Source: Candidatus Gallimonas intestinigallinarum (lineage in GTDB: Bacteria; Bacillota_A; Clostridia; Christensenellales; Borkfalkiaceae). From it: DNA of 24,941 bases. Positions 1,734-21,551 of the stretch are shown here, one piece after another. Under the pieces are notes generated by a model. It searched no databases. It saw nothing but the letters and a program-made list of their open reading frames with translations, and was not told the origin of the DNA. The stretch is from positions 1 to 24,941 of the forward strand of contig DXBS01000150.1 of the NCBI GenBank assembly GCA_019116405.1, given 5' to 3'. The translations under genes and the position numbers were made by a program. Numbering within the stretch: the stretch's first letter is position 1; each line of letters begins with the position of its first letter.

Positions 1734-1734
1734 T
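1706..1734 (+). promoter_or_regulatory. Sigma-A promoter for proS
   Basis: TGGACG (1706-1711), a 17-bp spacer and a perfect TATAAT (1729-1734). The promoter lies across the last codons of the S-component gene and about 37 bp before the proS ATG. Confidence 0.7.
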
Positions 1735-1770
1735 AGCCATATCTATTTTTTTATCTTTCGGAGCTTTTTT

Positions 1771-3198: not shown

Positions 3199-3202
3199 AG
3201 CT

Positions 3203-3661
3203 GTTCACGAATTTTCTCACGCAAAGGCGCAATTCCGTGATCTGAGAGGGCGGTCGTGGGCACGCCGCTTTGCGGCTGACCGCACGTCTCGTGCTGGTAG
3301 ACCCCGCCCTCGGTCAAGAAATTGCCTAACAAATGGCAATTTCTTAAGTTCGGGCATGCGCCGAAGCCGCACCGCGGCTATCGGCATAACGCACGCCCTC
3401 ACCCCTCTCTTGACGCGAACCTTAGGGGCTTACCATTATAGTTGCCCGCATTCACTCCCACCCCCAAGCTGCGTGAGCAGCAAATAGAGGCATACTGCGG
3501 AGGGGAACCCTCCTTGTATCTGAGATTTTAACAAAAGGCATAACAAGTGAAGCCTTTTCCCGTTATTCATAGCAAGGGCACGGGGAGTGACTTTCCTTGC
3601 GGCGTAATTGGAACGGGTTCACGCGAATCTTTTTGCAAAGGCGTAATTCCGTGATTGGAGA
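3203..3661 (+). repeat. Pair of ~45-bp imperfect direct repeats bounding the proS-GH13 gap
   Basis: The copies lie at about 3203-3248 and 3617-3661. Both contain GCAAAGGCGYAATTCCGTGAT preceded by a GTTCACG and followed by GAGAG, with small indels. They bound almost all of the 500-bp gap between proS and the GH13 gene, which otherwise has no convincing ORF. The interior holds a hairpin repeat (3316-3404) and a short hairpin at about 3499-3513. Flanking direct copies suggest duplication or insertion of a non-coding element. Confidence 0.65.
3316..3404 (+). repeat. Dispersed intergenic hairpin repeat, copy A
   Basis: AAGAAATTGCC (3316-3326) pairs perfectly with GGCAATTTCTT (3335-3345). Then come TAAGTTCGG, a GCACCGCG block and ACGCACGCC(C)TCACCC. 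The same order of motifs recurs at 21691-21775, and AGGCATAACAA (around 3536-3546) recurs at the end of that copy. It is non-coding and looks like a member of a genome-wide intergenic repeat family. Confidence 0.65.
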
Positions 3662-3699
3662 GAAAATGCCGCCGCGATACAGGCGGTAAGGAGATAAAC

Positions 3700-5223: not shown

Positions 5224-5317
5224 GTCGCCCGGAAAAAGGCGTATCGCGGCGCATGCGCAAAAGAAATGGCGCGCCGTGTACGCGTAAAACAAGCAAGCTA
5301 TTTTTGGAGGATTCCAA

Positions 5318-6691: not shown

Positions 6692-6706
6692 CAAGAAAAT
6701 ACTTTG

Positions 6707-6744
6707 CGGCGCGCCCCTTGTGAAAGGGGCGCGCCGTGCTGTTT
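6707..6744 (+). terminator. asnS terminator
   Basis: A perfect 13-bp GC-rich stem, CGGCGCGCCCCTT (6707-6719) with AAGGGGCGCGCCG (6724-6736), and a 4-base loop. It is followed by a T-rich TGCTGTTT. Confidence 0.8.
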
Positions 6745-6929
6745 GTCAGATATTTTTTCGGGAAAAAAAGTGCGTCTGAGCGCGTCTGAGAGCCAAAACA
6801 ACGCCTGCCCGGGACTTTTCCCGGGGCTTCGAGGAAGGGAAATGCGGCGAAATTGCGGCGCATTTGCGAGGGGAGAGGGGGTGAGAAAAAGGAATGGCGG
6901 GCGCAGTCTTGCGGGCTGCGCTGTTTTTT
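6745..6929 (+). other. Structured intergenic stretch, possible small RNA
   Basis: No ORF of note lies here. There are hairpins at 6808-6825 (CCCGGGA/TCCCGGG) and 6840-6865 (AAATGCG/CGCATTT), and it ends in a terminator-like hairpin at 6901-6929. asnS already has its own terminator upstream, so this second, orphan one suggests a short independent transcript. No clear promoter was found, and no known RNA family was recognised. Confidence 0.25.
6901..6929 (+). terminator. Orphan rho-independent terminator
   Basis: GCGCAG (6901-6906) and CTGCGC (6916-6921) form a stem with a 9-base loop, followed by TGTTTTTT. There is no annotated gene directly upstream on this strand after the asnS terminator. 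Confidence 0.55.
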
Positions 6930-6965
6930 GTGCCAAATGCCCGTAAAAGAGGATGTTTTTGGCAT

Positions 6966-7002
6966 TTTTCATAGTATTATGTGACACATAGTACTATGAA
7001 AA
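6966..7002. repeat. 37-bp near-perfect palindrome
   Basis: Two 18-base arms (6966-6983 and 6985-7002) around a single central A, with one mismatch. The core CATAGTATTATGT is shared exactly with the hairpin at 14572-14600. It lies upstream of the AT-rich gene at 7168 and may be an operator or a repeat element. The rest of 7003-7073 shows nothing else I could identify. Confidence 0.6.
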
Positions 7003-9113: not shown

Positions 9114-11663
9114 TCATCTGTGCCTGTTACGGTCTTTTTCGCGGGGCAGCAGGAAGATATAGACGCCGACGATGAGCAGCGCCAGCACGGTCAGGATGAT
9201 GATGAGCGCGATGCGGATCGCCTCCGAGCCGTCGTTATCCAGCATGTCCGCCGTGACGGTCGCGTGGAACGAGGAGTCGTCGGTCAGGCGCGCGGTGTAG
9301 GTGCCGTCGCCGTTGTCAAAGAGCTGTACCTGCGTGCGCTCGGTGACGAGCCGCTCCTCGCCCGCGTCGTTGGTAAAGAGGATGCCGTCCGAGGGCTTGA
9401 GATAGGAGAGAGTGTACAGATCTCCCGCCGCGGGACCGGGTGAGACGGTCGTGAGATAGGACGCGGGGACCCAGCCGCGCTGCACACTGCGCGCGTCCGT
9501 CTCGTATTCGATGAGGGCGTAGGTCATGTCGGGTGCTTCCACGGTGCCCAGAAGCGTGACCTGCGTGCCGCGTGCGAGCGTGAGATCGATGAGCGGGGCG
9601 TCGAGGCAGGGCGCAAAGTATGCCGAGACCTGCGAGGAGAGATAGCGCGTTTCGCCCTCTGTCTGCGTCCAGCTGCTTTCGGCGGTCGTGACGGCGTCGG
9701 CGCGAAGAAGTTCGGCGGTGTAGCTGCCGTCATCCTCCGCAAAGAGCACGACGGCATAGCCGCCCGGGTTGGTCGCATCGTCTGCGAGCAGGACGCCGCG
9801 GCGCGCCTCCGCGCTCCTGCCGTAGCGGACATAGGGGAAGCTGTCATCGTCCGTATCGCGCAGCGCTTCAAGGTCGACGGTGATGCCGACTGCCTGCGCG
9901 GCGACGTCCACAATGAGGTTTTCCTGCGTGTGATGGGAGAAGATGGCCTCCCTTGCGTCGCCGACGGGAAGTTCGGAGAGCGTCGGAATGGAGGCAAGCG
10001 CGCCTTCGGCGGCGTCCGTGCTTGCCTGCGTCGCGACGATATAGTTGCCGAAGAGGAAATAGACGGCGTCGTCCTCGTATCCGAGGACATAGGAGCGCGC
10101 CTGCGCACTGTCCGCGCCGTAGACGAAGTCAGTGCCGTCGATAGCGGCATACGCCTGTCCGTTGCACATCAGCGTGCCGTTTGAAAGACAGTAAAGGTTG
10201 CCCTCGAGGTCCGCGCGCAGGGCGGTCGCGCCGACGGGAAGGATGATGCCCGTGTCCGTTCCCGTGCTCTGGGAGAGAAACTCCTCCTCTGTGTACATGC
10301 GCACTCTGCCGCCCGTGTAGGAGAGGTAAATGTTGCCGTAGAGGTCGGCGGTCATGCCGTTGGGGGAGGTGCTCGTCTCGATCGATTCGCCGCCCACGAT
10401 GCCCCGCGTGCCGTTGCCCTTGACGTAGTAGGTGCTGCCATACAGTACGCTCAGCCCCACGACCTCGGTACCCGTGAGCCGGGCGGAGGTGAATGCCGTC
10501 TCGCCCGCTGCGTAGTTGCAGGTGTAGACCTGCGTCCCCGACGCGTATGCGATGACTTCGCCGTCTGTCGCGACGCGTTCGGGTTCACTCTCGCAGGCGA
10601 GGACTGTGTAGCTGTCCTCTGCGCTGTTGTAGACGGCGATGCGGTCGTTGCCCGCGTCTGCGGTGACGATCAGATCGCCTGCGCGCACAATGTCCGTCGC
10701 GCCGTTTAAGCGGTTGGGAGAATCGGACGCGGCGGCGATCTCATAGTCGGTGTATGCTGCGCTGCCGTCTCCGATTTCGATCTCGCGGACGGAGGAGCCT
10801 CGGATGCAGTAGAACTTCCCGCCGTAATAGCTGAGCGCCGAGACGCGGCAGAAGTCCGCGTCGTCGGAAAGCAGGGTGGGCGCGGCGTCGCTGCCCGGGG
10901 CGCGGCGGAACAGTCCCGCCGCAGAGGAGAAGTAGAGATAGGTCCCGTCCGAACAGAGGGAGGCAATGTGGCGGTTGACCGTCGTATCGGTGGAGATGTA
11001 GTAGCTGAGCATGTCGCCGTACATGCCGTCGGGTCCGGGATAGTAGATCTGATCGCTCACCGTGCAGTAGAGCGTGCCATCCGCGTAGGAGAGCCAGGGC
11101 TCCGTTCCCGTGGAGAGCTCGCCGAGGAAGGTGCCGTCCGACTGCAGATCGGAGAGGCTGCGCTGTGCGAGCGTCGTCACGCCTTGCGAGATAACCGCCG
11201 TATACAGCATGTCGTTTGCTATGAGGAAGGTAGAACAGTTGAGCGAGGGGATCTGCTCTGCCTCGCTCGTTGTGCAGTCGTAGCGCCAGAAATAATTGGA
11301 AGTGCTGCGCACGGTAAAGTAGAGGGTGTCCCCGACAAACTGGATCTTGCCGATGGACGCGCTCTCGCCCGACGTCGTATAGGCGACATAGCCGGACTGT
11401 GTACCGCGCTCATAGACATAGAGCGACCTGCCGTCCGCGATCGCGATATATTCGTCCGAGAATGCGGCGTCGGAGGGAGAATTCAGCTCAAGGTACTGTT
11501 CGTAACTGCCCGGAAGAAAGAGCGAGGCGTTCTCCGTCGTGAGCGAAACGCTCTCTTCTTCCGCCTGCGCGCTCACCGGGGGATTGAGTTGGGATGCAGC
11601 CGTACAGATCGCGCCGCACAGAAGAAGTGCGGCGAGCGCGGCTGCGCTCTTTCGTAGTAACAT
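9114..11663 (-). CDS. Secreted, C-terminally membrane-anchored beta-propeller/SH3-like protein
   Basis: An 849-residue protein of unknown function. An N-terminal signal peptide (about 1-34, plausible cleavage after SAQA) leads into a long extracytoplasmic region. Residues ~50-560 show repeated beta-rich units of the kind (D)GxLYxxx...NDRIAVYN and PNGMTADLYGNIYLSY, typical of NHL/PQQ-like propellers. An SH3-like segment follows at about 700-760 (LARGTQVTLLGTV...QRGWVPASYL). One TM helix near the C-terminus (about 815-840) is followed by a basic tail, PREKDRNRHR, so the bulk faces outward. Its domain plan parallels the smaller gene at 12394-13074. The ATG lies only 6 bp past the -10 box, with no SD. 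Likely a cell-surface sensor or binding protein, but no function can be assigned. Confidence 0.8.
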   Translation of the reverse strand: MLLRKSAAALAALLLCGAICTAASQLNPPVSAQAEEESVSLTTENASLFLPGSYEQYLELNSPSDAAFSDEYIAIADGRSLYVYERGTQSGYVAYTTSGESASIGKIQFVGDTLYFTVRSTSNYFWRYDCTTSEAEQIPSLNCSTFLIANDMLYTAVISQGVTTLAQRSLSDLQSDGTFLGELSTGTEPWLSYADGTLYCTVSDQIYYPGPDGMYGDMLSYYISTDTTVNRHIASLCSDGTYLYFSSAAGLFRRAPGSDAAPTLLSDDADFCRVSALSYYGGKFYCIRGSSVREIEIGDGSAAYTDYEIAAASDSPNRLNGATDIVRAGDLIVTADAGNDRIAVYNSAEDSYTVLACESEPERVATDGEVIAYASGTQVYTCNYAAGETAFTSARLTGTEVVGLSVLYGSTYYVKGNGTRGIVGGESIETSTSPNGMTADLYGNIYLSYTGGRVRMYTEEEFLSQSTGTDTGIILPVGATALRADLEGNLYCLSNGTLMCNGQAYAAIDGTDFVYGADSAQARSYVLGYEDDAVYFLFGNYIVATQASTDAAEGALASIPTLSELPVGDAREAIFSHHTQENLIVDVAAQAVGITVDLEALRDTDDDSFPYVRYGRSAEARRGVLLADDATNPGGYAVVLFAEDDGSYTAELLRADAVTTAESSWTQTEGETRYLSSQVSAYFAPCLDAPLIDLTLARGTQVTLLGTVEAPDMTYALIEYETDARSVQRGWVPASYLTTVSPGPAAGDLYTLSYLKPSDGILFTNDAGEERLVTERTQVQLFDNGDGTYTARLTDDSSFHATVTADMLDNDGSEAIRIALIIILTVLALLIVGVYIFLLPREKDRNRHR

Positions 11664-11698: not shown

Positions 11699-11886
11699 TT
11701 GCATGCAGGCAAAAATTTTATGAAAGTCCGGGAAGACACAAAAAAACCGTCGGTTTGAAAAAAATTTGAAAAATCCGGAAATTTTTTTGTCATACAGGCA
11801 GCCGTCTGTCATATTTCCATGCTATGATAAAAAGGCAAACAAACGTTCGTATATGTTCGGGCGAAGTCCGGACAGCAGGAGGGGAA

Positions 11887-12393
11887 GTGGCAAACGAATA
11901 CGCAAAGGTGATCCTGTATGCATATCCCTATCTTTCGGCGCTCAGCGACGCCGTCGGGGTGGGCGCGGTCAACAAGGCGATGTTATCCTTTCGTTCGCAG
12001 GAGGACGCCTTGCAGACGGCGGAGACCATCGTGGAGGAGCTGGCGGTCAAATCCAGGCTCATGCGGCTGGAAGATGCGGTGAATGCGGCGCTCTCTTCGC
12101 TGAGCGACGAGGAGCTGTATCTGCTGGAGTACAAGTATTTCCGCCGCAAGCGGGTGCTGCGGGAGAAGTATGCGGGATACTGCATGGCGTGCTCCGAGCG
12201 GACATACTACCGCAAACAGTGTGCCGTACTCAAAAAGTTTGTGTGCCGTCTCATGCAGCAGGGCTGGCAGGAGCAGACTTATTCGGAGGCATTTGGCAGT
12301 TTCGCGCCCTTTGCGCGCGTGCTGGACGCGCTGAAGGCGGGGCGGGAGGGGGCGATCACGCAAAAGCGCGCCCGCAAAGAGCGGGGCGCATGA
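11887..12393 (+). CDS. ArpU/RinA-like phage transcriptional regulator (sigma-70 region 4-like)
   Basis: A 168-residue protein from the GTG at 11887, chosen for its strong SD (AGGAGG, 11877-11882). An ATG at 11824 is in frame but has no SD. A helical N-terminal part (residues ~1-70) is followed by LSDEELYLLEYKYFRRKRV and then CSERTYYRKQCAVLKKF. This is the spacing of a sigma-70 region 4-like helix-turn-helix as found in phage late-gene regulators of the ArpU/RinA type. Such genes usually sit just before the terminase genes and switch on head and packaging genes. Here a reverse-strand gene lies between it and terL, and the stop codons of the two abut at 12393/12394. Target sites are unknown. 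A weak TTGTCA/CATATT promoter (11787-11815) is possible. Confidence 0.72.
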   Translation: MANEYAKVILYAYPYLSALSDAVGVGAVNKAMLSFRSQEDALQTAETIVEELAVKSRLMRLEDAVNAALSSLSDEELYLLEYKYFRRKRVLREKYAGYCMACSERTYYRKQCAVLKKFVCRLMQQGWQEQTYSEAFGSFAPFARVLDALKAGREGAITQKRARKERGA

Positions 12394-13074
12394 TCAGAAG
12401 TCCTGCGGTTCATCCGTCTGGCGGCGCTTGCCGCGCATGAGGATAATTGTGATGGCGACCGCCGCGCCGCAGGCAAGGCAGATGACGACGATCTGCGTCG
12501 CGCTGACGGGACTCTCCGCGGCGGGCGTCTGATCGGTTTCGCCGTCGCCGCTCGTTGCGGCGAGGTAGTCGGTATTGTGCTCGTATTCGGGCGGCGCGTC
12601 GGCAGGGATATAGCCGAAGGTGCCGTCCAGGAGCACATACAGGTAGAGCTGTCCGCTCTCGTAGCGGTCGCCGTAGTAGACAAAGGTGCGCTCGACGGAA
12701 GTGAAGGCGTCGTCGCCGAGGTCGCCCGCTTCGGGCAGGGTATAGGTGACGGTGATCTGCTTTCTGAGGTAGGGGCGGACGGGAATGAAGTCGACAAAGA
12801 GCAGCTGATCGGTGCGGCAGTACCCCAAAAGTTTTTTGTAGGGCAGGTCGTCCACGAGATATTCCACGGTGGAATAGACCTCGCCCTCCTCGAGGACGCG
12901 GACGTAGTATGTATCGGGAATGAGAAAAAGGCGTTCTTCCTCGCTCGCGCCCGCGTAGAACCAGACGTCCTGCTCGCAGACGGCATACCGCCCGTCGGCG
13001 GCGGAGGCGGCGAGGGGCGGGGCGGGAAACAGGAGCGCCGCAAGGAGCGGCAAAAGGAGGATCAGACGTTTCAT
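12394..13074 (-). CDS. Secreted SH3-like, C-terminally membrane-anchored protein
   Basis: A 226-residue protein of unknown function. A signal peptide (about 1-25, plausible cleavage after ASA) precedes an extracytoplasmic beta-rich region. This has two SH3-like stretches, around WFYAGASEEERLFLIPDTYYVRVLEEG and SGQLYLYVLLDGTFGYIPADA. A low-complexity Thr/Pro/Glu linker leads to a single TM helix (about 188-211) and a basic/acidic cytoplasmic tail. The plan parallels the 849-residue protein at 9114-11663, so the two may be related in role. It lies reversed between the phage-type regulator and terL, and its start is 44 bp from the terL start on the opposite strand. No SD precedes the ATG; a TACGAT box ends 7 bp upstream, so this may be another leaderless gene. 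It could be a host surface gene or a cargo gene of the cassette. Confidence 0.72.
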   Translation of the reverse strand: MKRLILLLPLLAALLFPAPPLAASAADGRYAVCEQDVWFYAGASEEERLFLIPDTYYVRVLEEGEVYSTVEYLVDDLPYKKLLGYCRTDQLLFVDFIPVRPYLRKQITVTYTLPEAGDLGDDAFTSVERTFVYYGDRYESGQLYLYVLLDGTFGYIPADAPPEYEHNTDYLAATSGDGETDQTPAAESPVSATQIVVICLACGAAVAITIILMRGKRRQTDEPQDF

Positions 13075-13118
13075 GTCTGCTATCGTAGCGCGTTTGCGCG
13101 GGCGGGCGGGGAGCGGTT

Positions 13119-14564
13119 TTGACGAAAATGAGCGAATTATCGGTAAAACTCAGGGCGGTGGAGGCGGAGATCGCCAAGCGGCGGGCGGCGGACCATCTCG
13201 CGCACTACAATACGGGCAGAAAAAAGCATAAAAAACAGCTCGCCTTCCACAAGTGTAAAAAGCGCAACCGCTGGGTGTTCGGCGGCAATCGCTCGGGTAA
13301 GACGGAGTGCGGTGCGGTGGAGGCGGTGTGGATGGCGCGCGGGTGTCATCCCTACCGCAAGAACAGGAAGGACGTGTTCGGCTGGGTGGTGTCGCCCACC
13401 ATGCAGGTGCAGCGCGACGTCGCGCAGAAAAAGGTGCTCTATTACCTGCGTCCCGATCAGATTGCGGATATCGTCATGGTCAGCGGCAGAAAGGACAACC
13501 CCGCCGCGGGCATCGTCGACCAGATCATCGTCAGGAACGTTCTGGGCGGGACGAGCGTGATCGGCTTCAAGAGCTGCGATCAGGGCAGGGAGCGCTTTCA
13601 GGGGAGTTCGCTGGATTTTGTCTGGTTTGACGAGGAGCCGCCGCGCGATATCTACGAGGAGTGCATGATGCGCGTCGTCGACCGACAGGGGGATATCTTC
13701 GGGACAATGACGCCCCTGAAGGGGCTGACCTTTCTCTACGAGGAGATCTACCTCAACCGCGGGAACAATCCCGAAGTCTGGTACGAGTTCATGGAGTGGG
13801 CGGACAACCCCTTTCTCTCCAAGAAGGAGATCGCGCTGCTCACCGCCTCCATGGACGAGACGACGCTGCAGTCCCGCCGCTACGGCAGGTTCGCCGCGCG
13901 CGAAGGGTTGGTCTATCCCGAATTTGACGAGCGGGTGCATGTCATCGAGCCCTTTTCCGTCCCGCCTGACTGGCAGGCGAAGATCAGCATCGACCCGGGG
14001 CTCAAGAACCCGCTCTCGGCGCACTGGTACGCCGTCGATTGGGACGGCAATGTGTATGTGATCGCCGAGCACTACGCCGCGGGGAAGGATGTAGACTACC
14101 ATGTGCGCGCCATCCTCGCGATGTGCGAAAAACTGGGCTGGAAGCGGGACGCGCAGGGGAGGGTGGAGGCGCTCATCGACTCGGCGGCGGGGCAGCGCAC
14201 GCTGGCGGCGGCAAAATCAGTCGCGGAGCTTTTCGCAGAGCGCGGCATCCTCGCCGATACCCGCGTCGAGAAGGACGTCTTTTCCGGCATCGAACGCGTC
14301 AAGGGGTACTTAAGTCGCGATAACGGGCTGCCCGATCTGTATATCTTCTCGGGGTGCGTCAATATGATCCGCGAGTTCAAGAGCTATTTCTGGGGCAGCG
14401 GGGAGAGTCCCGTAAAAAGAGACGATCACGCGATGGACGAGCTGCGCTATTTTCTGATGGATCGCCCGCAGCCCGCGCGGACGAAGGGCGAAAAGAGCGC
14501 GATTGCGAGGGACAAGGAGAAGCGCATCCGGGCGCTGAGAAGGGGAACAAAACACAAAAAATGA
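13119..14564 (+). CDS. Terminase large subunit
   Basis: A 481-residue DNA-packaging motor: an ATPase that pumps DNA into capsids plus a nuclease that cuts it. Walker A is GGNRSGKT (55-62), Walker B is VWFDEEP (168-174, with Asp171/Glu172), and a TMTPLKG coupling-type motif lies at 196-202. The C-terminal RNase H-like nuclease has acidic residues at SIDPG (Asp292), LIDSAA (Asp354) and DDHAMDE (435-441). All key residues appear present, so the enzyme looks functional. The start is taken as TTG at 13119 (SD GGGGAG, about 5 bp away); an ATG three codons later (13128) is an alternative. It is the first gene of the head run and diverges from the SH3-like gene. Confidence 0.92.
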   Translation: MTKMSELSVKLRAVEAEIAKRRAADHLAHYNTGRKKHKKQLAFHKCKKRNRWVFGGNRSGKTECGAVEAVWMARGCHPYRKNRKDVFGWVVSPTMQVQRDVAQKKVLYYLRPDQIADIVMVSGRKDNPAAGIVDQIIVRNVLGGTSVIGFKSCDQGRERFQGSSLDFVWFDEEPPRDIYEECMMRVVDRQGDIFGTMTPLKGLTFLYEEIYLNRGNNPEVWYEFMEWADNPFLSKKEIALLTASMDETTLQSRRYGRFAAREGLVYPEFDERVHVIEPFSVPPDWQAKISIDPGLKNPLSAHWYAVDWDGNVYVIAEHYAAGKDVDYHVRAILAMCEKLGWKRDAQGRVEALIDSAAGQRTLAAAKSVAELFAERGILADTRVEKDVFSGIERVKGYLSRDNGLPDLYIFSGCVNMIREFKSYFWGSGESPVKRDDHAMDELRYFLMDRPQPARTKGEKSAIARDKEKRIRALRRGTKHKK

Positions 14565-14571
14565 CATGGAA

Positions 14572-14600
14572 CATAGTATTATGTCTGACATAATACCGTG
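14572..14600. repeat. Hairpin between terL and the next gene
   Basis: CATAGTATTATG (14572-14583) pairs with 14589-14600, with one mismatch and one wobble. The inner 8 bp (GTATTATG/CATAATAC) are perfect. CATAGTATTATGT is identical to the core of the palindrome at 6966-7002. Possible roles are an mRNA hairpin, an operator or a packaging-related site; none is shown. Confidence 0.5.
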
Positions 14601-14632
14601 AAAATGCCAGAAAAAGGAGGAAAAGTCGTTGG

Positions 14633-14896
14633 ATGCAGGAGGATAAGGTCAGGGATGCGGTGCTCAAAGTCGCGCTCGGCTTCCGCGTGGAGGAGGTGAC
14701 GGAGGAGTACGGCATGGAGGACGGGGAGATGCGCCTCGTCAAGTGCAGAAAGACGCACAAGGATATCCCGCCCGACTTAAAGGCGGTGCGCCTTTTATTG
14801 GAGGGAACGGACTACGCGTCCTTTACGGACGAACAGCTCGAAGCGGAGAAAGAAAAGCTGCTCAGACAACTTGAGCGCGAAAAGGAGAATGCATGA
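14633..14896 (+). CDS. Small phage protein, possible terminase-small-subunit-like
   Basis: An 87-residue, charged, mostly helical protein. An N-terminal helix is followed by VTEEYGMEDGEMRLVKCRKTH and then IPPDLKAVRLLLEG. That order resembles small proteins beside terL in Clostridia phages, whose pattern is 'Lys/Thr-rich strand, pPD..A...L'. A C-terminal Glu/Lys helix may form a coiled coil. SD AAGGAGG is at 14614-14620, 12 bp from the ATG, which is a long spacing. It overlaps the portal start by 4 bp. It may help terL choose DNA, but no DNA-binding motif is clear. It is the only small gene near terL that could take that role. Confidence 0.6.
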   Translation: MQEDKVRDAVLKVALGFRVEEVTEEYGMEDGEMRLVKCRKTHKDIPPDLKAVRLLLEGTDYASFTDEQLEAEKEKLLRQLEREKENA

Positions 14897-16743
14897 ACGG
14901 GGAAATAACAGAGAAAACGGCGAAAGAAAAGCGCGCCGAGGCGCTGGTGAAGGACGTGACGGCGGATTTTGAAGCGCGTCGGGAAATGCGGCGCAGCCTC
15001 GAGCGCGGCTGGCAGCTCAACATGAACTTTGTCAGCGGCAATCAGTACTGCGATATCGGCGCCGCGGGGGAACTGGAAGAGGAGACGGCGGAATTTTACT
15101 GGCAGTCGCGCAGGTGCTTCAATCATATTGCGCCCACTTTGGATACGCGCATCGCGCGCCTTGCCAAGGTGCGCCCCAGTCTTGAAGTGCGCGCCTTCTC
15201 CGATTCGGACGACGACATGAAGACGGCGCGGCTGTGCTCCAATATCCTGAAGGCGGTCAGAAACAGAATCGATCTGGACGGCATCATCGACCGCGCGACG
15301 CTCTGGTCGGAGACGTGCGGCACTGCATTTTACAAGATCGTCTGGAACTACGAGGACGGCAAGGTCATCGGCACGGACGATACGGGGCACTCCATCCGCG
15401 AGGGAGACGTCAACGTGGTGGCGCTCTCGCCCTTTGAAGTGTACCCGGACAGCCTCACCGCGGAGGGAATGGAGGAGGTGGAGAGCCTCATCCACGCCAA
15501 GGCGGTGCCCGTGTCGCAGATCAAGGAGCGCTTCGGCGTGGAGATCGAAGGGGAGACGATCACCGACTTTCCCTTTGTTCCCTTCTCGTCGGCGAGCGGC
15601 TGGAGGCGTCCCATAGACGGCGCGGCGCAGCCCGCGCTTCAGGACGCTGTCATTTTAATTGAACGGTATACCCGTCCGAACGGCGAACACCCGAACGGAC
15701 GGCTTGAAATCGTGGCGGCTGACAAACTCTTGTACGAAGGAGATCTTCCCTATCGCAACGGCGACCGCGGCGAGCGCGTGCTGCCCTTTGTGCGGCAGAC
15801 CTGCATCGCCCTGGCGGGCGCGTTCTTCGGGACGAGCGTCGTGGACAGGATGATCCCCCTCCAGCGGGCGTACAACGCGGTCAGAAACCGCAAGCACGAA
15901 TTTCTCAACCGGCTGTCGATGGGCGTCATCGCGGTCGAAGATGGCTCGGTGGACGCTGAGGATCTTGCGGAGGACGGGCTGTATCCCGGGAAGGTGCTCG
16001 TCTACCGCAGGGGCTCGGAAAAGCCGGGCTTTCTGGAGAGCGGGACGCTGCCATCGGAGTTCGAAAAGGAAGAGGAGCGGCTTTCGGGGGAATTCATCCT
16101 CGTCTCGGGCATGAGCGAGATCTCCCGCAACTCCGCGAACCCGACGCACGTCACGAGTGCGACGGGGTTGCAGCTGCTCATCGACCAGGACGTCAACCGC
16201 ATGCACATGAGCGTGGAGAGCATGGAGCGCGCTGTCAGAGAGGCGGGCAAGCAGATCCTGCATCTCTACAAGCAGTTCGCGGGCGCTTCGCGCGTCATGC
16301 GCATGACGGGCACGGGCGGGTATGCCGAGCTGTTTGAGTTCAGCAGAAGCGACATCTCTGCGGACGACGTGCAGTTCGTATCCGGATACGAGCGCACGGC
16401 AGAGCAGAGAAAGGAGGATATCTTGTACCTTCTGTCGCTCGGGCTTCTGCGGGACGAGAACGGCAACTTTTCGGACGACACGCGCAACCGCGTGCTGGAG
16501 GCGCTGGGGTACGGTTCGTTCGACAACGCGCGGGATATCTCCCATCTGCACCTCAAGAAGGCGGAGAAGGAAAATATCCTGCTGGAGACCATGGACGTGG
16601 AGGCGGATGCGTATGACGATCATGCGCTGCACACGACCGAACACGTCCGCGCCCTGCTTTCGGGCGGGGAGGAGGACGCGGTGCGCAGGGAGCGCATCCT
16701 CAGGCACCTTGCGTCCCATCAAAAATTCGGAGGAGAGAAATGA
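14893..16743 (+). CDS. Phage portal protein (P22-like)
   Basis: A 616-residue portal that would form the ring at the capsid vertex through which DNA enters and to which the neck attaches. Hallmarks are the N-terminal RSLERGWQLNMNFVSGNQYC, then FNHIAPTLDTRIARLAKVRPSL, a central beta-rich wing with DVNVVALSPFEVYPD, and SGEFILVSGMSEISRNSANP. The crown region is rich in charged helices. The length is in the range of P22-like portals and the frame is intact. The ATG at 14893 overlaps the preceding gene's stop by 4 bp, and the portal stop overlaps the scaffold start by 4 bp, indicating translational coupling. It lies directly between terL-side genes and capsid genes, as in podovirus head modules. 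Confidence 0.88.
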   Translation: MNGEITEKTAKEKRAEALVKDVTADFEARREMRRSLERGWQLNMNFVSGNQYCDIGAAGELEEETAEFYWQSRRCFNHIAPTLDTRIARLAKVRPSLEVRAFSDSDDDMKTARLCSNILKAVRNRIDLDGIIDRATLWSETCGTAFYKIVWNYEDGKVIGTDDTGHSIREGDVNVVALSPFEVYPDSLTAEGMEEVESLIHAKAVPVSQIKERFGVEIEGETITDFPFVPFSSASGWRRPIDGAAQPALQDAVILIERYTRPNGEHPNGRLEIVAADKLLYEGDLPYRNGDRGERVLPFVRQTCIALAGAFFGTSVVDRMIPLQRAYNAVRNRKHEFLNRLSMGVIAVEDGSVDAEDLAEDGLYPGKVLVYRRGSEKPGFLESGTLPSEFEKEEERLSGEFILVSGMSEISRNSANPTHVTSATGLQLLIDQDVNRMHMSVESMERAVREAGKQILHLYKQFAGASRVMRMTGTGGYAELFEFSRSDISADDVQFVSGYERTAEQRKEDILYLLSLGLLRDENGNFSDDTRNRVLEALGYGSFDNARDISHLHLKKAEKENILLETMDVEADAYDDHALHTTEHVRALLSGGEEDAVRRERILRHLASHQKFGGEK

Positions 16744-17138
16744 CGGAAGAGGAGAACACAACGCAGGGACCCGAGGACACGACCAAAGTCGATCTCGGAA
16801 AATTTCAGAACGTAGACGCCCTCATGCGCGCTTACAAGGAGCTCGAGGCGGAATTCACCCGTCGCAGTCAACGCCTGCGGGCGCTGGAGGCTGCTGCGGC
16901 GCAGTCGGACGAAGCGCAGCCGAAGCGCGCAGAAGCGGACGCTCACGAAGAGCTGTACCGTGCCGTCAAGGGGGACGAGGGGGTCTGCGCGCGCATCGTG
17001 GGCGAGTATCTCGCCTCGTGCAAGGGCGTGCCCATTCTCGGGGGCGGGGGTGCGGGCGTCACGGCGCCCGTCAAACGAGCGCAGACCTTCAAAGATGCAG
17101 GCAACATGGCGCTCGGCTACTTCAAATTACAAAAATAA
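16740..17138 (+). CDS. Probable capsid scaffolding protein
   Basis: A 132-residue hydrophilic protein. VDLGKFQNVDALMRAYKELEAEFTRR (about residues 17-42) is the KF-x-(D/S)-x-ALxxAYxxLExEFTRR pattern common in phage scaffold or capsid-assembly proteins. It runs into a charged coiled coil and an acidic, Ala-rich middle. A Gly-rich linker (LGGGGAG) and a short basic C-terminus (PVKRAQTFKDAGNMALGYFKLQK) follow; a basic C-terminus is what scaffolds usually use to hold the coat protein. It is shorter than the ~300-residue P22 scaffold. Its position between portal and coat supports the call. Confidence 0.72.
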   Translation: MTEEENTTQGPEDTTKVDLGKFQNVDALMRAYKELEAEFTRRSQRLRALEAAAAQSDEAQPKRAEADAHEELYRAVKGDEGVCARIVGEYLASCKGVPILGGGGAGVTAPVKRAQTFKDAGNMALGYFKLQK

Positions 17139-17161
17139 AGCAACAAGGAGAAAATTAACAT

Positions 17162-18316
17162 ATGGTTACTACCACTTCGGCAGACAGCGCGCTCCGTTCG
17201 TACTATTTGGACGCAGTCACGGAACAGCTCAACAGAAGCGCTAATCCCTTCCTCGCGGCGATCGAACAGACCACCTCGGACGTGTGGGGCAAGGACGTCA
17301 AAAAGACGGTCGTGTGCGGGCTGCACGGCGGCATCGGCGCGGGCACGGAGGACGGAGATCTGCCCGCTTCGTCGACCAACGGATATGCACAGCTCACCGC
17401 GACGCTGAAAAACCTCTACGGCAAGATCGAGATCAGCGACAAGGCGCTGCGCGCTTCCCGCAATGACGAGAGTGCGTTCGTCGACCTGCTCAATGAGGAA
17501 ATGAACGGGCTTGTGCGCAGTTCGTCCTTCAACCTCGGCAGAATGCTCTTCGGCGACGGCACGGGAAAGCTTGCGACGATCTCCAGTGCGACCGGCACCA
17601 CGTATTCGGTGGACAGCACAAGAAATCTGGCGACCGGGATGATCGTCGATGTTATCTCCGGCGAGGGCGCCGCGGTTGCGACCGCGCGCACGATCACCGC
17701 AGTCGATCACAATAAAAAGACGGTCAGCGTTTCGGGATCGACGGTCAGCGGTGTAACAAACTGCGGTCTGTACGTCCAGAATTCACGCAATCTCGAGCTG
17801 ACGGGGCTGGGTGCGATCTTTTCCGATTCTACGACGCTCTACGGGCTGAATCGCTCGGAGAACGGCTGGCTGACGCCCACGATCATCAAGGAGGTGGGTA
17901 CGCTCAGCGAGCTCAACGTACAGACCGCGATCGACAGAGTGGAGGAGGCGTCCGGCGGACAGATCAACTTCATCATCTGTTCGTGGGGCGTCAAGCGCGC
18001 GCTCTACAACGTCCTGAGCAAGTACCGCCAGTGTGACAGCGTCACGCTCGAAGGCGGCACGCGCGCCATTACCTTCAACGGTATCCCCGTCGTGGCGGAC
18101 CGCTTCTGCCCGAGCGGCACGATGTATCTGCTGAACACCAACGATTTCCACCTGCATCAGCTGTGCGACTGGCAGTGGCTGGAGGGGGAAAACGGGCGCG
18201 TGCTCAATCAGATCCCCGGCAAGCCCGTCTATCAGGCGACGCTCGTCAAGTATGCGGAGCTCATGTGCTACCGCCCCTGCGGGCAGGCGATGATGAGCGG
18301 CATCACGGAGAAGTAA
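17162..18316 (+). CDS. Major capsid (coat) protein, HK97 fold, P22-like
   Basis: A 384-residue coat protein expected to build the icosahedral shell. Features of P22-type coats are the early VWGKDVKKTVVCGLHGG, then LKNLYGKIEISDKALRASRND and a long helix, FVDLLNEEMNGLVRSSSFNL. A Ser/Thr/Val-rich beta insertion lies at about 148-205, like the inserted I-domain. The C-terminal half contains INFIICSWGVKRALYNVL and FNGIPVVADRFCPSGTMYLLN, a common HK97-fold signature. SD AAGGAG is at 17146-17151, and the gap after the scaffold gene is 23 bp. No truncation is seen. Confidence 0.85.
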   Translation: MVTTTSADSALRSYYLDAVTEQLNRSANPFLAAIEQTTSDVWGKDVKKTVVCGLHGGIGAGTEDGDLPASSTNGYAQLTATLKNLYGKIEISDKALRASRNDESAFVDLLNEEMNGLVRSSSFNLGRMLFGDGTGKLATISSATGTTYSVDSTRNLATGMIVDVISGEGAAVATARTITAVDHNKKTVSVSGSTVSGVTNCGLYVQNSRNLELTGLGAIFSDSTTLYGLNRSENGWLTPTIIKEVGTLSELNVQTAIDRVEEASGGQINFIICSWGVKRALYNVLSKYRQCDSVTLEGGTRAITFNGIPVVADRFCPSGTMYLLNTNDFHLHQLCDWQWLEGENGRVLNQIPGKPVYQATLVKYAELMCYRPCGQAMMSGITEK

Positions 18317-18329
18317 CAAGGAGGGCGGT

Positions 18330-18905
18330 ATGCTCATCAAGGATGTGCTGATCACGGCGGCGGAGAGCATCGGCAGGACCGACCTGACGAGCGCGATCGA
18401 GTCGGCATACAGCGCGGCGGTCAGTTCGGGGACGTCTCCCTCGGGCGAGGCAGCCGCCCTGCTGCGGTGCTACCGCCTCGTGGAGAACGAAGTCGCGCTC
18501 GATCATCTGCCGCTTCGGGCGCAGGATACGCTTTTGCCCGTCGACGGCTATGTGCAGTTTTCCGATTTTTCCCATTCGCCCGTGGACGTGATCGAGGTCA
18601 GGGACGCGCAGGGGAGTAAGACGGAGTTTGAGGTCTTAGCCTCCCGCCTCTATGTGGGGACGGGGAGCGGGTCCGTCACCATTGACTACACCTATGTGCC
18701 CGAACAGCCCAAGATCAGCGATGAAACGGCGTTTTCGGACAAGGTGTCCGCCCGCTTGCTTGCCTTCGGCGTCGCCAATGAATACCTGCTCACTGCGGGA
18801 CGGTATGCCGAGGCGGCGGTGTGGGAAAAGAAGTACCGCGATGCGCTTTCGGCGGCGGGGCTCTCGCGCAGAAAGCTGTGCGTGCGGGCACGGAGGTGGG
18901 TATGA
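18330..18905 (+). CDS. Head-tail adaptor (P22 gp4-like)
   Basis: A 191-residue protein just after the coat gene. A helical start (LIKDVLITAAESIGR) leads to ALLRCYRLVENEVALDHLPL and a beta-rich middle, then FSDKVSARLLAFGVANEYLLTAGRYAEAAVWEKKYRDAL. This helix-beta-helix plan and size fit the neck adaptor that docks under the portal and stabilises packaged DNA. The ATG at 18330 has SD AAGGAGG, and the stop overlaps the next start by 4 bp. The assignment is from layout and position rather than a unique motif. Confidence 0.65.
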   Translation: MLIKDVLITAAESIGRTDLTSAIESAYSAAVSSGTSPSGEAAALLRCYRLVENEVALDHLPLRAQDTLLPVDGYVQFSDFSHSPVDVIEVRDAQGSKTEFEVLASRLYVGTGSGSVTIDYTYVPEQPKISDETAFSDKVSARLLAFGVANEYLLTAGRYAEAAVWEKKYRDALSAAGLSRRKLCVRARRWV

Positions 18906-20176
18906 CGCCCTCGCATAGGACGTATACGCTGCACTATCCCCTCGCCGAACTCAGAAAGGGCGGGCGCATCCGCCGCCTCCGGCTGGAACACTTCCGTGAG
19001 GAGAGCGGTGCGCTCGTGTGCGCAGAGGGGGAGAGCTTTGCGTATTCGCTGCCCTCGTCCACGACGGACATCTTCTGCGCCGACAACCGCCTGTTCGCCT
19101 ATGTGCAGAGTTCGCAGACGGGGAAGTTCATGGATACGGGCGTCTCCTATCCCTCGGGCGGCAGCATGCACAATTTAGTCGCGCTCGTCGAGGCGGAGGG
19201 CACGACGCGCTTTTTCGCCATCGGAAACAGTTACCTCAACTACTTTGCCAACACGGCAAACAGCATCGTCACCTTTTCGCCCACGCCCTCGACGACGGCG
19301 CTCGCGCTGCATCATGAGCGGCTCTTCGGCGCAGTCGGGACGCGCGTCTACTACACCAAGCCGCTGGACTTCCGCGGCTGGGAGGAGTACGGCGAGCACG
19401 ATGCGGGATATTTTGACCTGCTGCCGGGTGCGGGCACTGTCGTGGATATCTTTTCCATGCGCGACAGAGTGTTCTTTCTCAGGCGATACGGCATCACCCG
19501 TCTGACGGGGTACTGCGACATCTACAATTTTCGCCAGGAGGAAATGCCGTTCGGCATGGGGGAAGTGCTTTCGCGGGCGGCGGTCATCGGGGAATATGCC
19601 TACTTCTTCACACGCAAGGGGCTGTGCCGCTTTGACGGGACAAGCGTCGAGCATGTGGAGGACGCGTCCGACGAGGAGATCTCCCTGCTTCATGAGATCC
19701 GCATGGGCGCGCTGGAGTGTATGCATGCGGCGGCATCCGTCACGCTTTCGGACGGCGCCGAGGCGATCTATATCTACGATCCCGTGTCAAAGCGCGGCAG
19801 ATTTATCCGCCGCAGTTACGATGCGTGCGCGTTCGGGCTGTACATTTATACGAAGCGCGGCAGTTCTGCGTACCGCCTGACGGGCAAGGCACTGCCCTCG
19901 TCCGGTTCGTGCAGACTCCTGACGGAATTCACGTTTGCCGACCTCGGCGAGGGGGAGAAGCGGCTGGAGGCGGTGTACCTCGCGGGCAGAGGGAACTTTT
20001 CGGTGACGGCGGCGGGTGAGGAGGACTCCGTGACGCTGTCCGTTCCGGCGGGGGAGTGGACGCGGTTTCCCGTCGCGGTGCGCGGGGAGAACGTGACGCT
20101 GACCGTCAGCACGAGCCAGAGTACCGCATCGCTCAAGGAACTTGATCTGCGCGTGAGGAGGGAGGACAGGATATGA
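18902..20176 (+). CDS. Beta-propeller neck/tail-hub protein (P22 gp10-like)
   Basis: A 424-residue beta-rich protein. The ATG at 18902 overlaps the preceding stop by 4 bp and is preferred over in-frame codons inside that gene. It contains repeated propeller-like blades such as FFAIGNSYLNYFA, LALHHERLFGAVGTRVYYTKP, VVDIFSMRDRVFFLRRYGITRLTG and AVIGEYAYFFTRKGLCRFDG. The latter pair is typical of phage hub proteins in the gp10 position (portal, gp4, gp10). It would close the neck below the adaptor. A C-terminal beta domain follows (LEAVYLAGRGNFSVTAAGEEDSVTLSV). Overlap with the next gene is again 4 bp. No downstream needle or spike gene exists to cap it. Confidence 0.7.
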   Translation: MTPSHRTYTLHYPLAELRKGGRIRRLRLEHFREESGALVCAEGESFAYSLPSSTTDIFCADNRLFAYVQSSQTGKFMDTGVSYPSGGSMHNLVALVEAEGTTRFFAIGNSYLNYFANTANSIVTFSPTPSTTALALHHERLFGAVGTRVYYTKPLDFRGWEEYGEHDAGYFDLLPGAGTVVDIFSMRDRVFFLRRYGITRLTGYCDIYNFRQEEMPFGMGEVLSRAAVIGEYAYFFTRKGLCRFDGTSVEHVEDASDEEISLLHEIRMGALECMHAAASVTLSDGAEAIYIYDPVSKRGRFIRRSYDACAFGLYIYTKRGSSAYRLTGKALPSSGSCRLLTEFTFADLGEGEKRLEAVYLAGRGNFSVTAAGEEDSVTLSVPAGEWTRFPVAVRGENVTLTVSTSQSTASLKELDLRVRREDRI

Positions 20177-20664
20177 CCATCGACATCGTCGATCTGACCG
20201 ATGAGAAGTACAGCGACCTCAATGCCGTGCAGATGGCAATGGTGCGCGCGGCGCAGGTCAAAAAGAACGAGATCGTTGCCGAAGCGGAGGAGGAAAAGGC
20301 TTCCATTCAGCGGGAGCTGGTCGCCAACAACTTTGCACGCTCCTATGTGCAGGTCATGGCAAACGCGCGCATCAACGCGGCGCAGCTGGAGGCGATCAAC
20401 GCGCTCAAGGAGGATTTGGACTACCAGCTCGCCTATGAGGCGCTCGCTTCGGAGGGGAACGAGATGGGACCTTACCAGTATCCGTCCAACCCTAACTACA
20501 ACCTCACGCCCTCGCAGCGCTTTCTCGTCGTGCGCGAGTACTACATGAGCGTGACGGATGATCCCGACGCCCGCTTGCAGGCGTACGCGGGGGACACGCT
20601 CGCACGAAGCTATCTGGGCGAATATTACGCAACGCTGTACGATCTGCTCGCATCGTACTGCTGA
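20173..20664 (+). CDS. Uncharacterised helical protein, last gene of the cassette
   Basis: A 163-residue protein of unknown function. A long amphipathic, charged helical stretch (about 20-95; VRAAQVKKNEIVAEAEEEKASIQ...) is likely to form a coiled coil. A Tyr/Pro/Asn-rich linker (GPYQYPSNPNYNLTPSQ) and a Tyr-rich helical C-terminus, GEYYATLYDLLASYC, follow. It begins with a 4-bp overlap and ends 9 bp before the terminator. It sits where a P22-like phage would carry a needle or internal ejection proteins, so it may be a neck plug or internal virion protein. That is an inference. Confidence 0.6.
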   Translation: MTIDIVDLTDEKYSDLNAVQMAMVRAAQVKKNEIVAEAEEEKASIQRELVANNFARSYVQVMANARINAAQLEAINALKEDLDYQLAYEALASEGNEMGPYQYPSNPNYNLTPSQRFLVVREYYMSVTDDPDARLQAYAGDTLARSYLGEYYATLYDLLASYC

Positions 20665-20672
20665 AAAAAGGG

Positions 20673-20705
20673 GCAGGCTCCGCAACATGCGGAGCCTGCT
20701 TTTTT
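20673..20705 (+). terminator. Terminator of the capsid cassette
   Basis: A perfect 12-bp stem, GCAGGCTCCGCA (20673-20684) with TGCGGAGCCTGC (20688-20699), a 3-base loop and six T. An A-run at 20664-20669 could let it work on the other strand too. Confidence 0.93.
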
Positions 20706-20853
20706 GACGCTTTAATATGAATAAACCCCCGGTGCCTTATTGCTTATTCGTGATAGTTGTATTTTTCTTGCTATTTGGTGTCTCAATCCTAATAGCTGAA
20801 AGGCAAGTTGTTGGGACGAAAGCGTACTCATCGGCGCTGTGAGTAAAGACGTG

Positions 20854-20907
20854 ATACGGCAAATGCTAAAGCCGAACTGAAAATTATTTTAGGAAAGTTT
20901 GCCGTAT
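20854..20907. repeat. 10-bp inverted repeat before the toxin-antitoxin promoter
   Basis: ATACGGCAAA (20854-20863) and TTTGCCGTAT (20898-20907) are exact inverted copies 34 bp apart. The second arm ends 3 bp before the -35 box. It could be an operator or a hairpin. The rest of the gap from 20706 is AT-rich and shows no ORF or recognised RNA. Confidence 0.4.
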
Positions 20908-20910
20908 ATA

Positions 20911-20940
20911 TTGACTTTGTGGCTGAATATGGTATATAAT
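20911..20940 (+). promoter_or_regulatory. Promoter of the toxin-antitoxin operon
   Basis: TTGACT (20911-20916), an 18-bp spacer and a perfect TATAAT (20935-20940), 31 bp before the antitoxin ATG. Confidence 0.8.
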
Positions 20941-20971
20941 ATAGGTACAAGATAATATGGAGGTAAAAGCT

Positions 20972-21229
20972 ATGACGATCATTCCGATGAGAGACTTAAA
21001 GGATACCGTCGAGATAGAGCGCCGTTGTATGGAGGAAAAAGGCCCCGTCTTTGTTACCAAAAACGGTTACGGCAAGTTGGTCGTAATGGATATTGAGTAT
21101 TACGAACAGACTATGCGCAGGATATACGAAGCAAAACAGATCAATGAAGGACTGTCCGATCTGGCAAACGGCAAAACTGTTGACGGCGACGAAGTAAAAC
21201 AGAAATTGGCGGCGAAATATGGCATCTGA
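20972..21229 (+). CDS. Type II antitoxin, RelB/Phd-like
   Basis: An 85-residue antitoxin. The ATG at 20972 has a good SD (GGAGG, 20959-20963); an ATG five codons earlier overlaps that SD and is less likely. The N-terminal part (IIPMRDLKDTVEIERRCMEEKGPVFVTKNGYGKLVVMDIEYYEQ) is the Phd/YefM-type DNA-binding fold, with the 'P[IV]FVTKNG.G.LVVM' run. The C-terminal helix would wrap round the toxin. It ends 11 bp inside the start of the toxin gene. It is expected to repress its own promoter, alone or with the toxin. Confidence 0.88.
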   Translation: MTIIPMRDLKDTVEIERRCMEEKGPVFVTKNGYGKLVVMDIEYYEQTMRRIYEAKQINEGLSDLANGKTVDGDEVKQKLAAKYGI

Positions 21230-21551
21230 ATACGGGTATCGCTTCACGCGGCAGGCAGAAACGGACTTATCCGGGATTCTGCAATACATAAGCGAAGACT
21301 TATCGAATCCGAGTGCGGCAACCGCACTCGGACGTAAGGTCTTTGCAAGCATTGAGGATATAAGACAGTTTCCGCAGTCTGGTATGATTGTGGACAATCC
21401 CTTTTTGACGGATAAGGATGTGCGTCGCACGCTGATAGATAATTATATCCTCTACTACAAAGCCATAGACGCTGAAAAGATTGTGTATATCATCCGTATC
21501 GTGTATGCAAAGCGCAATCTGGACGAGATATGCCGCGAATTGGAGATATAA
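21219..21551 (+). CDS. ParE/RelE-superfamily toxin
   Basis: A 110-residue toxin overlapping the antitoxin gene by 11 bp. The family pattern is clear: YRFTRQAETDLSGILQYISEDLSNPSAA, then KVFASIEDIRQFPQSG, then VRRTLIDNYILYYKAIDAEKIVYIIRIVYAKRNLDEI. The RR.L..NY.I.Y and I.I..I.Y..R pattern is typical of ParE-like members, which poison gyrase, rather than ribosome-dependent RelE, but the target is uncertain. The pair is AT-richer than the surrounding genes and probably acquired. Confidence 0.88.
   Translation: MASEYGYRFTRQAETDLSGILQYISEDLSNPSAATALGRKVFASIEDIRQFPQSGMIVDNPFLTDKDVRRTLIDNYILYYKAIDAEKIVYIIRIVYAKRNLDEICRELEI

Follow-up and report, generated by a model that had tools for sequence, protein, structure and literature searches.

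A podovirus-type head and packaging cassette of Candidatus Gallimonas and related gut Clostridia, probably domesticated and gene-transfer-agent-like

A contig of 24,941 nucleotides from Candidatus Gallimonas intestinigallinarum (GenBank DXBS01000150.1), called the window here over its whole length, carries a compact row of genes for a phage head and its DNA packaging motor, and it raises the question of what such genes do among ordinary host genes. A sequence-only reading had described an intact P22-like head and packaging cassette and proposed either a gene transfer agent (GTA)-like particle system or a packaging satellite. There are indeed eight open, co-directional frames, terL to g8, between 13119 and 20664, and the real extent is larger by three conserved upstream genes. 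Domestication of the cassette is well supported, and the GTA-like proposal is now supported by evidence beyond the window sequence, because head genes are rarely broken, the host gene GH43 stays beside the cassette in near relatives, att-like repeats were not found and dN/dS is low; the satellite proposal did not hold. We consider it likely that the window holds one copy of an ancient, vertically inherited, domesticated podovirus head-and-nozzle cassette that is GTA-like and would package host DNA non-specifically.

Relatives were collected by scanning a species-genome collection with a TerL alignment, which gave at least 577 matches confirmed by tblastn (E ≤ 1e-3). The best-scoring 80 of these (66–86% identity) served as related loci and are therefore biased toward relatives of the window. 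Names among them are Clostridia, Clostridiales and Eubacteriales metagenome-assembled genomes (MAGs), three Candidatus Gallimonas species, Ca. Coproplasma and one Christensenella sp. Ten cassette-region proteins were scanned against Pfam and PHROGs and ten flanking proteins against Pfam. Gene families were followed across the loci with iterated profiles on stop-to-stop segments, and such profiles can drift. The genes are listed below, with the number of the 80 loci in which each family was found.

9114..11663, minus strand: exported, membrane-anchored, beta-propeller-like protein of 849 residues (PF16472/DUF5050 at E 3e-4, below the cut-off); 73 of 80 loci
11824..12393, plus strand: phage late-regulator-like gene (phrog_36, 1e-5); 80 of 80
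12394..13074, minus strand: hyp12394, a 226-residue surface protein with two SH3-like barrels; 80 of 80
13119..14564, plus strand: TerL, large terminase, packaging ATPase and nuclease (PF03237, 3e-13; phrog_2, 6e-30); one open segment in 80 of 80
14633..14896, plus strand: g2, TerS-like, 87 residues, predicted C-terminal half of a small terminase (phrog_309 positions 195-242 of 319); 79 of 80
14893..16743, plus strand: P22-type portal (PF16510, P22_portal, 3e-18; phrog_156, 7e-36), recovering 15 of 15 host splits; 79 of 80
16740..17138, plus strand: scaffold-like protein, by position and size, with no notable family match; 75 of 80, the other five at contig ends
17162..18316, plus strand: major coat protein (phrog_14242, 1e-61), present in 173 of 297 genomes of the order; 75 of 80
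18330..18905, plus strand: gp4-like head-tail adaptor, by position, with no family match; 71 of 80, the others at contig ends
18902..20176, plus strand: gp10-like tail nozzle of 424 residues, by a structure model and Foldseek matches to podovirus nozzles; 70 of 80
20173..20664, plus strand: g8, 163 residues, no role assigned; 69 of 80, the others at contig ends
20673..20699, no strand given: 12-pair hairpin right after g8, a possible terminator (the scan assigned it to the minus strand)

By sequence, the conserved unit begins upstream of terL with the phrog_36-like regulator, the SH3-type membrane protein and the propeller-like membrane protein. All eleven genes lie in one order, propeller (minus), regulator (plus), SH3 protein (minus), terL, g2, portal, scaffold, coat, gp4, gp10 and g8, in 63 of the 80 loci and in the window, and by this single order a chance clustering of the genes was rejected. 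Wherever a downstream gene is missing, a contig end lies no more than 172 bases away; L024 and L098 are the sole loci with ample room for the propeller gene and yet without it. Four-nucleotide overlaps at the g2/portal, portal/scaffold, gp4/gp10 and gp10/g8 junctions are consistent with translational coupling of the head genes. The claim that no frame of the cassette is broken was confirmed, and the claim that TerL keeps its motifs also holds: GGNRSGKT and D171-E172, which we take to be the Walker motifs, and D292, D354, D435 and D436, presumably the nuclease residues, are invariant in 16 TerLs. Within the cassette, terL shows the strongest conservation, at about 75% identity where the coat protein is at about 60% in the same loci.

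The proposed synteny check came out in favor of a fixed chromosomal place among near relatives. In the nearest eight loci (TerL identity 83–86%), GH43 lies beside the cassette in six; prolyl-tRNA synthetase (proRS), asparaginyl-tRNA synthetase (asnRS) and GH43 are all common to the window and L021, L023 and L027, GH43 alone is found in L025, L026 and L028, and L022 is too short to judge its neighbors. Over all related loci GH43 occurs in 19 of 80.

For a wider view of the distribution, 297 genomes were drawn from the order of genome G009, which we take to be Christensenellales (Borkfalkiaceae); NCBI taxonomy places Ca. Gallimonas under Clostridia incertae sedis. TerL matches were found in 236 of them and split sharply, 176 at E 1e-78 or better and 60 at 1e-23 or worse. 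TerL and coat occur together in 170 genomes, coat without TerL in 3, TerL without coat in 6. A single TerL match is present in 169 of the 176 strong carriers and two in seven, four of which (G090, G264, G292, G308) hold the pieces of one gene on two contigs; the others are G063, G076 and G135. One genome, G122, has two full coat genes in tandem (L213, 8026-10376). Disrupted head genes, which according to the sequence-only reading would point to a normal or dying prophage, are uncommon: 10 of the 12 strong TerLs that are partial stop at contig ends. The reading of flagged stops as broken TerLs was rejected, since all nine checked of the 20 flagged were open.

In a sample of the class, 18 of 341 genomes pass a TerL threshold of E 1e-30, and 12 of these are also in the order sample. 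Of the remaining six, L139 and L140 are prophage-like loci whose head genes are homologous, and L135-L138 have a TerL with no recognized portal or coat in the stretch read (L138 stops 0.8 kb past terL). L135-L138 come from Clostridia outside the order sample with a TerL close to the cassette family, and near that of L136 lie a phrog_36 regulator and, by eye, a corrinoid-protein-like gene.

Inheritance was examined in 28 genomes by comparing FastTree gene trees with those of rpoB and gyrB. The rpoB and gyrB trees agree on 15 of 25 splits. Of these 15, regulator recovers 14, and terL, gp10, g8 and hyp12394 recover 13 each, alongside the 15 of the portal; the propeller gene recovers 11 of 14. Against rpoB, Mantel correlations lie between 0.67 and 0.84, while the largest value in 2000 permutations per gene is 0.38; against gyrB they lie between 0.72 and 0.91, with a maximum of 0.52 in 1000 permutations. 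On these splits and correlations, the phage genes and the three upstream genes track the host about as well as rpoB and gyrB agree with each other, gp4 and coat less so. The suggested dN/dS test (NG86) gave low values in the six nearest pairs, 0.03–0.27 for terL, 0.10–0.17 for the portal and 0.02–0.22 for the coat; dS is near saturation for most pairs. The gp10 gene has a median dN/dS of 0.80 over 547 pairs with dS < 1.5. One pair of loci, L036 and L051 (G009, G017), combines an rpoB distance of 0.007 and a gyrB distance of 0.07 with distances of 0.20 for terL and 0.37 for the portal, by binning error or recombination.

The cassette is in some genomes divided between two places. TerL-coat spacing was taken from the listed places of 162 TerL and 149 coat genes, with both in 135 genomes. 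The coat gene lies within 6.5 kb after terL in 105 of the 135 and on a different contig in 23; in seven small genomes the two lie on the same contig but 12–103 kb apart, with both TerL and coat open. In G103, G082, G140, G168 and G181, the regulator, SH3 protein and terL form one locus and g2, portal, scaffold, coat, gp4 and gp10 another, both sitting among host-like genes. G155 is also split, as read from the terL side, and in G279 g2 stays beside terL, with ribosome- and tRNA-related genes (by eye) between terL and coat. These split loci argue against self-packaging of the cassette.

The 87-residue g2 product bears on how DNA would be chosen for packaging. Six of eight g2 proteins match the TerS family phrog_309 at E ≤ 0.1 (best 3e-5), and the match is confined to the positions listed above, leaving no room for an N-terminal helix-turn-helix. 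A scan of viral contigs with g2 led to L151, a piece of a phage that also has primase- and Snf2-like genes (by eye). Its TerS of 173 residues matches phrog_309 positions 154-257 (E 8e-15) and consists of an extra N-terminal part, resembling a helix-turn-helix by eye and having no Pfam match, followed by a g2-like half at 34% identity. The median number of residues ahead of the PPDxKA-type motif is 45 in 80 cassette g2 proteins, and it exceeds 75 in three by the chosen start codons. The g2 product thus looks like the C-terminal half of a TerS without the DNA-binding part. Its gene follows terL in 79 of 80 loci, the remaining locus ending at a contig end. A search of the PDB with g2 gave weak, unrelated matches at most. 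The TerS encoded upstream of TerL in prophages L139 and L140 (phrog_51 for L140) was tried as its counterpart and failed to align. In one subclade (L064, L080, L083, L085, L092, L096 and others) g2 has a C-terminal tail rich in lysine and arginine, which may bind DNA non-specifically. Random packaging by GTAs has been proposed to stem from loss of the N-terminal DNA-binding domain of TerS with non-specific binding kept, as outlined by Sherlock 2019 (PMC6854486). By its profile match, g2 would be such a small terminase without an N-terminal DNA-binding domain.

At the other end of the head operon, gp10 most likely starts at 18902 rather than at the listed 18821, its nearest homologs having that length. 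An AlphaFold 2 (AF2) model from a 46-row alignment reached pLDDT 92.8 and pTM 0.91, and its best Foldseek matches to solved structures are podovirus tail nozzles, among them P22 gp10 (8eap, E 7e-13) and the Sf6 and T7 tail complexes; the modeled gp10 folds as a podovirus tail nozzle. In P22 the head genes run portal, scaffold, coat, gp4, gp10. The cassette resembles P22-like podoviruses in this order and in the nozzle fold, and it differs from them in having no identified integrase, repressor, replication, needle or spike gene and in a shortened TerS placed behind TerL. The g8 gene sits at what we take to be the position of the P22 needle gene. Terminator-like sites in the region number 5, below a shuffled-sequence mean of 8.3.

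Of the three upstream genes, the phrog_36-like regulator is presumably RinA/ArpU-like and is a possible activator of the cassette; its family's best match in L053 is oddly placed. The SH3 protein hyp12394 has a signal peptide-like start and a C-terminal membrane helix and is transcribed away from terL. Its AF2 model (pLDDT 86, pTM 0.68) has a weak Foldseek match to autolysin repeats (E 2.9e-3). The propeller-like protein has, by eye, an SH3-like stretch near its C-terminus, and in L041 (~1344-7000) two adjacent genes correspond to the single propeller-type gene of other loci. The two surface proteins possibly serve as receptor, immunity or release factors.

The window flanks are host genes, as had been said of GH43 and trpB2. 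Pfam scans identified prolyl-tRNA synthetase, GH13, GH43, a pyridoxal phosphate (PLP)-dependent enzyme (TrpB2-like) and a Phd/ParE pair, and AsnRS and a P-type ATPase were named by eye. The Phd/YefM-ParE toxin-antitoxin pair lies directly 3' of the cassette (20957-21551), and tblastn found neither gene in related loci L001-L100. Base composition is host-like, again in line with the first description: GC content in 1.5-kb windows is 0.56–0.62 across 12001-21000 and 0.51–0.64 in the rest of the window. The described lack of life-cycle genes was borne out: scans of 20 window proteins turned up no integrase or repressor and no gene for replication or lysis (AsnRS, the P-type ATPase and the remaining small frames lay outside the scans). 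Clear att sites, named beforehand as a sign of a prophage, did not appear either, as no att-like repeats were found around the cassette. The locus therefore shows, in these 20 proteins and the repeat search, none of the integrase, repressor, replication genes and att sites of a P22-like temperate prophage.

Lysis and tail genes are found in relatives. In some subclades the operon ends in a BhlA holin (PF10960, 4e-16) and a Phage_holin_1/phrog_297 holin. Among 33 genomes, both holins occur once each in 6 of the 7 non-window-type genomes, always 3–4 kb past the coat gene (G103, G082, G181 and G122, previously seen, and G186 and G322, picked blind; not G224). The second holin follows gp10 in 6 of 8 further stretches, two of the eight being from G186 and G322; L229 stops soon after gp10, and L230 is without the second holin but has homologs of the tail genes of AT-rich relatives. 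Of those AT-rich relatives, L013, L014 and L016 are filed as viruses, L014 and L016 share the upstream regulator and SH3 protein with the cassette, and in L014 gp10 is followed by a tail protein (phrog_5302). Phrog_5302 was found in 1 of 30 genomes, as fragments, the L014 tail protein itself in 5 of 297 (two at E < 1e-40) and its 683-residue neighbor in 0 of 19, so that after these searches the tail-fiber genes of the window lineage remain unfound. The ancestral set probably had lysis and tail genes that have since been lost, replaced or moved in the window lineage.

Free phages with related heads were also found. A TerL match is present in 978 of 50,697 GenBank phage records, all below 60% identity, the best eight listed being at 28–31%. 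The IMG/VR TerL relatives (n = 75) comprise 46 at 52% or more, one at 44% and 28 at 27–36%. Contigs shorter than 20 kb account for 41 of the 46; among the other five, three look chromosomal in the parts read (L252/L331, L255, L256/L019) and two, L263 and L267, are phage-like. Many IMG/VR entries of the cassette family may be chromosome fragments. L263 (IMG/VR 2887785357, 34.8 kb, of which 17.4 kb was read) is the nearest true-phage-like relative seen. Its TerL is 59% identical and is followed by homologs of portal, scaffold, coat, c32 and gp4, but unlike the cassette it encodes a replication initiator and, ahead of terL, a longer TerS; g2 was not detected in the 17.4 kb. L267 (TerL 52%) has a helicase and a TerS-like gene (by eye) upstream. 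As L263 and L267 are phage-like, a phage with a cassette-type head exists, and the domesticated form differs from this phage relative in its TerS and in the missing life-cycle genes. L323/L347 was rejected as a phage carrying the cassette: it is siphovirus-like with its own capsid, tail, tape-measure and amidase genes (largely by eye). In L347 (L323), at ~13998, this siphovirus-like stretch borders on a cassette terL that breaks off near residue 173, which would fit the insertion of a prophage into terL. In other loci the cassette stops after the coat gene (L019, L255, L331) or inside terL (L157), and the next few kb contain restriction-modification or DNA methyltransferase genes (by eye); defense genes may land repeatedly in or beside the cassette.

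Few GTAs are known outside the Alphaproteobacteria. The definition set out by Kogay 2022 (PMC9662315) comprises caudoviricete-derived proteins, packaging of mostly random host DNA, full and often multi-locus endogenization, incomplete packaging of the GTA's own genes, mostly vertical inheritance with co-diversification, and DNA delivery. The cassette has caudoviricete ancestry (TerL, portal and coat profiles; gp10 fold), is fully endogenized (host neighbors common to near relatives; two loci in seven genomes) and is mostly vertically inherited with host co-diversification (28 genomes, rpoB, gyrB). We call it GTA-like rather than a proven GTA because three of the six features were found and the other three need experiments.

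The closest published case, likened by its description alone, would be FpGTA of Faecalibacterium prausnitzii (PMC12946183). As described there, FpGTA also belongs to gut Clostridia, is podovirus-like, has an operon with terminase, portal, scaffold and coat, a TerS without an obvious DNA-binding domain and no replication genes, and has more genes at a second locus. The account of FpGTA differs from the cassette in placing TerS upstream of TerL, where g2 is downstream; in tail-fiber and lysis genes ~125 kb away, where none was found for the window lineage and the holins of some sisters follow gp10; and in particles that have been shown (~40 nm, with 8.4–9 kb of DNA), where the cassette is known from genes. 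RcGTA and the alphaproteobacterial type I GTAs, as presented in PMC9662315 and PMC6854486, have in common with the cassette vertical inheritance, host co-diversification and a TerS without the N-terminal DNA-binding domain. In contrast to RcGTA, the cassette has a P22-type portal and a podovirus nozzle, no recognized long-tail genes and a Gram-positive-type host.

On the GTA-like reading, a phrog_36-type regulator would switch the operon on in some cells, and scaffold and coat would assemble a prohead on the portal. TerL, with a TerS lacking the DNA-binding helix-turn-helix, would fill the head with any chromosomal DNA it encounters; gp4 and gp10, and perhaps g8, would seal the vertex as a very short tail, and cell lysis would free particles carrying host DNA. 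Particle formation, expression, sequence-independent packaging, capsid size, delivery and, in the window lineage, lysis without a holin are what we infer from the genes. The most likely use is that cells pack and pass on pieces of their own DNA. We give about even chances to a broader proposal: that the cassette represents a GTA lineage which arose independently from a podovirus, dates back as far as a large group of gut Clostridia and has been retained by over half of the species sampled in the order. In that picture packaging would have become non-specific through loss of the TerS DNA-binding domain (one subclade having gained a lysine/arginine-rich tail), the divergently transcribed pair of wall-binding surface proteins would work for the system, perhaps as receptor or immunity, and in streamlined genomes motor and shell genes would have moved to separate chromosomal loci.

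Several observations weigh against the GTA-like reading. Particles, packaged DNA and transfer are predictions for this group, and 118 of the 297 order genomes lack both TerL and coat (some may be incomplete assemblies), so that the cassette is not essential. No tail fiber, tailspike or needle was identified for the window cassette, and none of the 26 window-type genomes has a recognized holin (PF05105, phrog_297 and PF10960 each 0/26). The TerS link consists of a modest profile match and one phage intermediate at 34% identity, and tblastn found no g2 relative in GenBank phages at E ≤ 1. Congruence with the host is imperfect (coat 12/15 and gp4 9/15 splits), and the near relative L024 has room yet other neighbors. 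Two TerLs are truly cut (G044, G054), the portal is in two pieces in L035, and of the 20 TerLs listed with a stop nine were checked, the frames of some strong matches being unlisted.

Among the alternatives, the most credible, though unlikely, is a particle that packs host DNA without transferring it and serves as a weapon that kills or lyses cells, much as PBSX does (a defective phage put to tailocin-like use). Delivery to cells is so far a prediction, the two conserved surface proteins could be immunity or target factors, and gp10 evolves as fast as a target-recognition part would; no long-tail or tail-tip killer gene was recognized in the cassette, however, and with TerL and the TerS remnant conserved the expected particle is a short-tailed head. 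That conservation, TerL above all, argues for DNA packaging and makes improbable an exapted shell with another cargo or role (protein or RNA storage, programmed lysis) and with DNA packaging secondary, even if portal and coat alone could serve other uses and function is judged from sequence.

Capsid-forming phage satellites carry an integrase and a replication module with their packaging genes. A capsid-encoding satellite (cfPICI-like) or another mobile packaging element would fit a compact module for head and packaging that comes without the rest of a phage genome, but the 20 scanned window proteins include no integrase or replication gene, att-like repeats do not flank the cassette, its trees are host-like and it occupies two loci in seven genomes; we regard this origin as very improbable. 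A decaying remnant of a recent prophage, intact by chance, has scarcely any probability left. Phages and prophages with homologous head genes are known (L139, L140, L263, L267) and cut TerLs do occur, yet TerL is open in all 80 loci across deep divergence at low dN/dS, and the genes keep their order, are mostly single copy and are congruent with the host. The dying prophage, for the group as a whole, and the satellite were both rejected on these grounds.

Our search of the open PMC literature on GTAs in Christensenellales, Borkfalkia and Borkfalkiaceae prophages, and broader searches as far as their listings go, found no description of the cassette. The authors of PMC12946183 (2026) present FpGTA, found in one genus, as the first GTA of the human gut microbiome; the fecal-particle data reported there include GTA-like packaging of Christensenellaceae DNA in 3 of 25 events, and the four MAGs it names as searched for loci belong to other families. 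The cassette is a concrete gene set to compare with that packaged DNA, its fragments are shown to be catalogued as viruses, and with it the TerS-truncation model of random packaging becomes testable over many natural variants. If the cassette makes particles, a built-in gene-exchange machine would be present in over half of the species sampled from a gut order.

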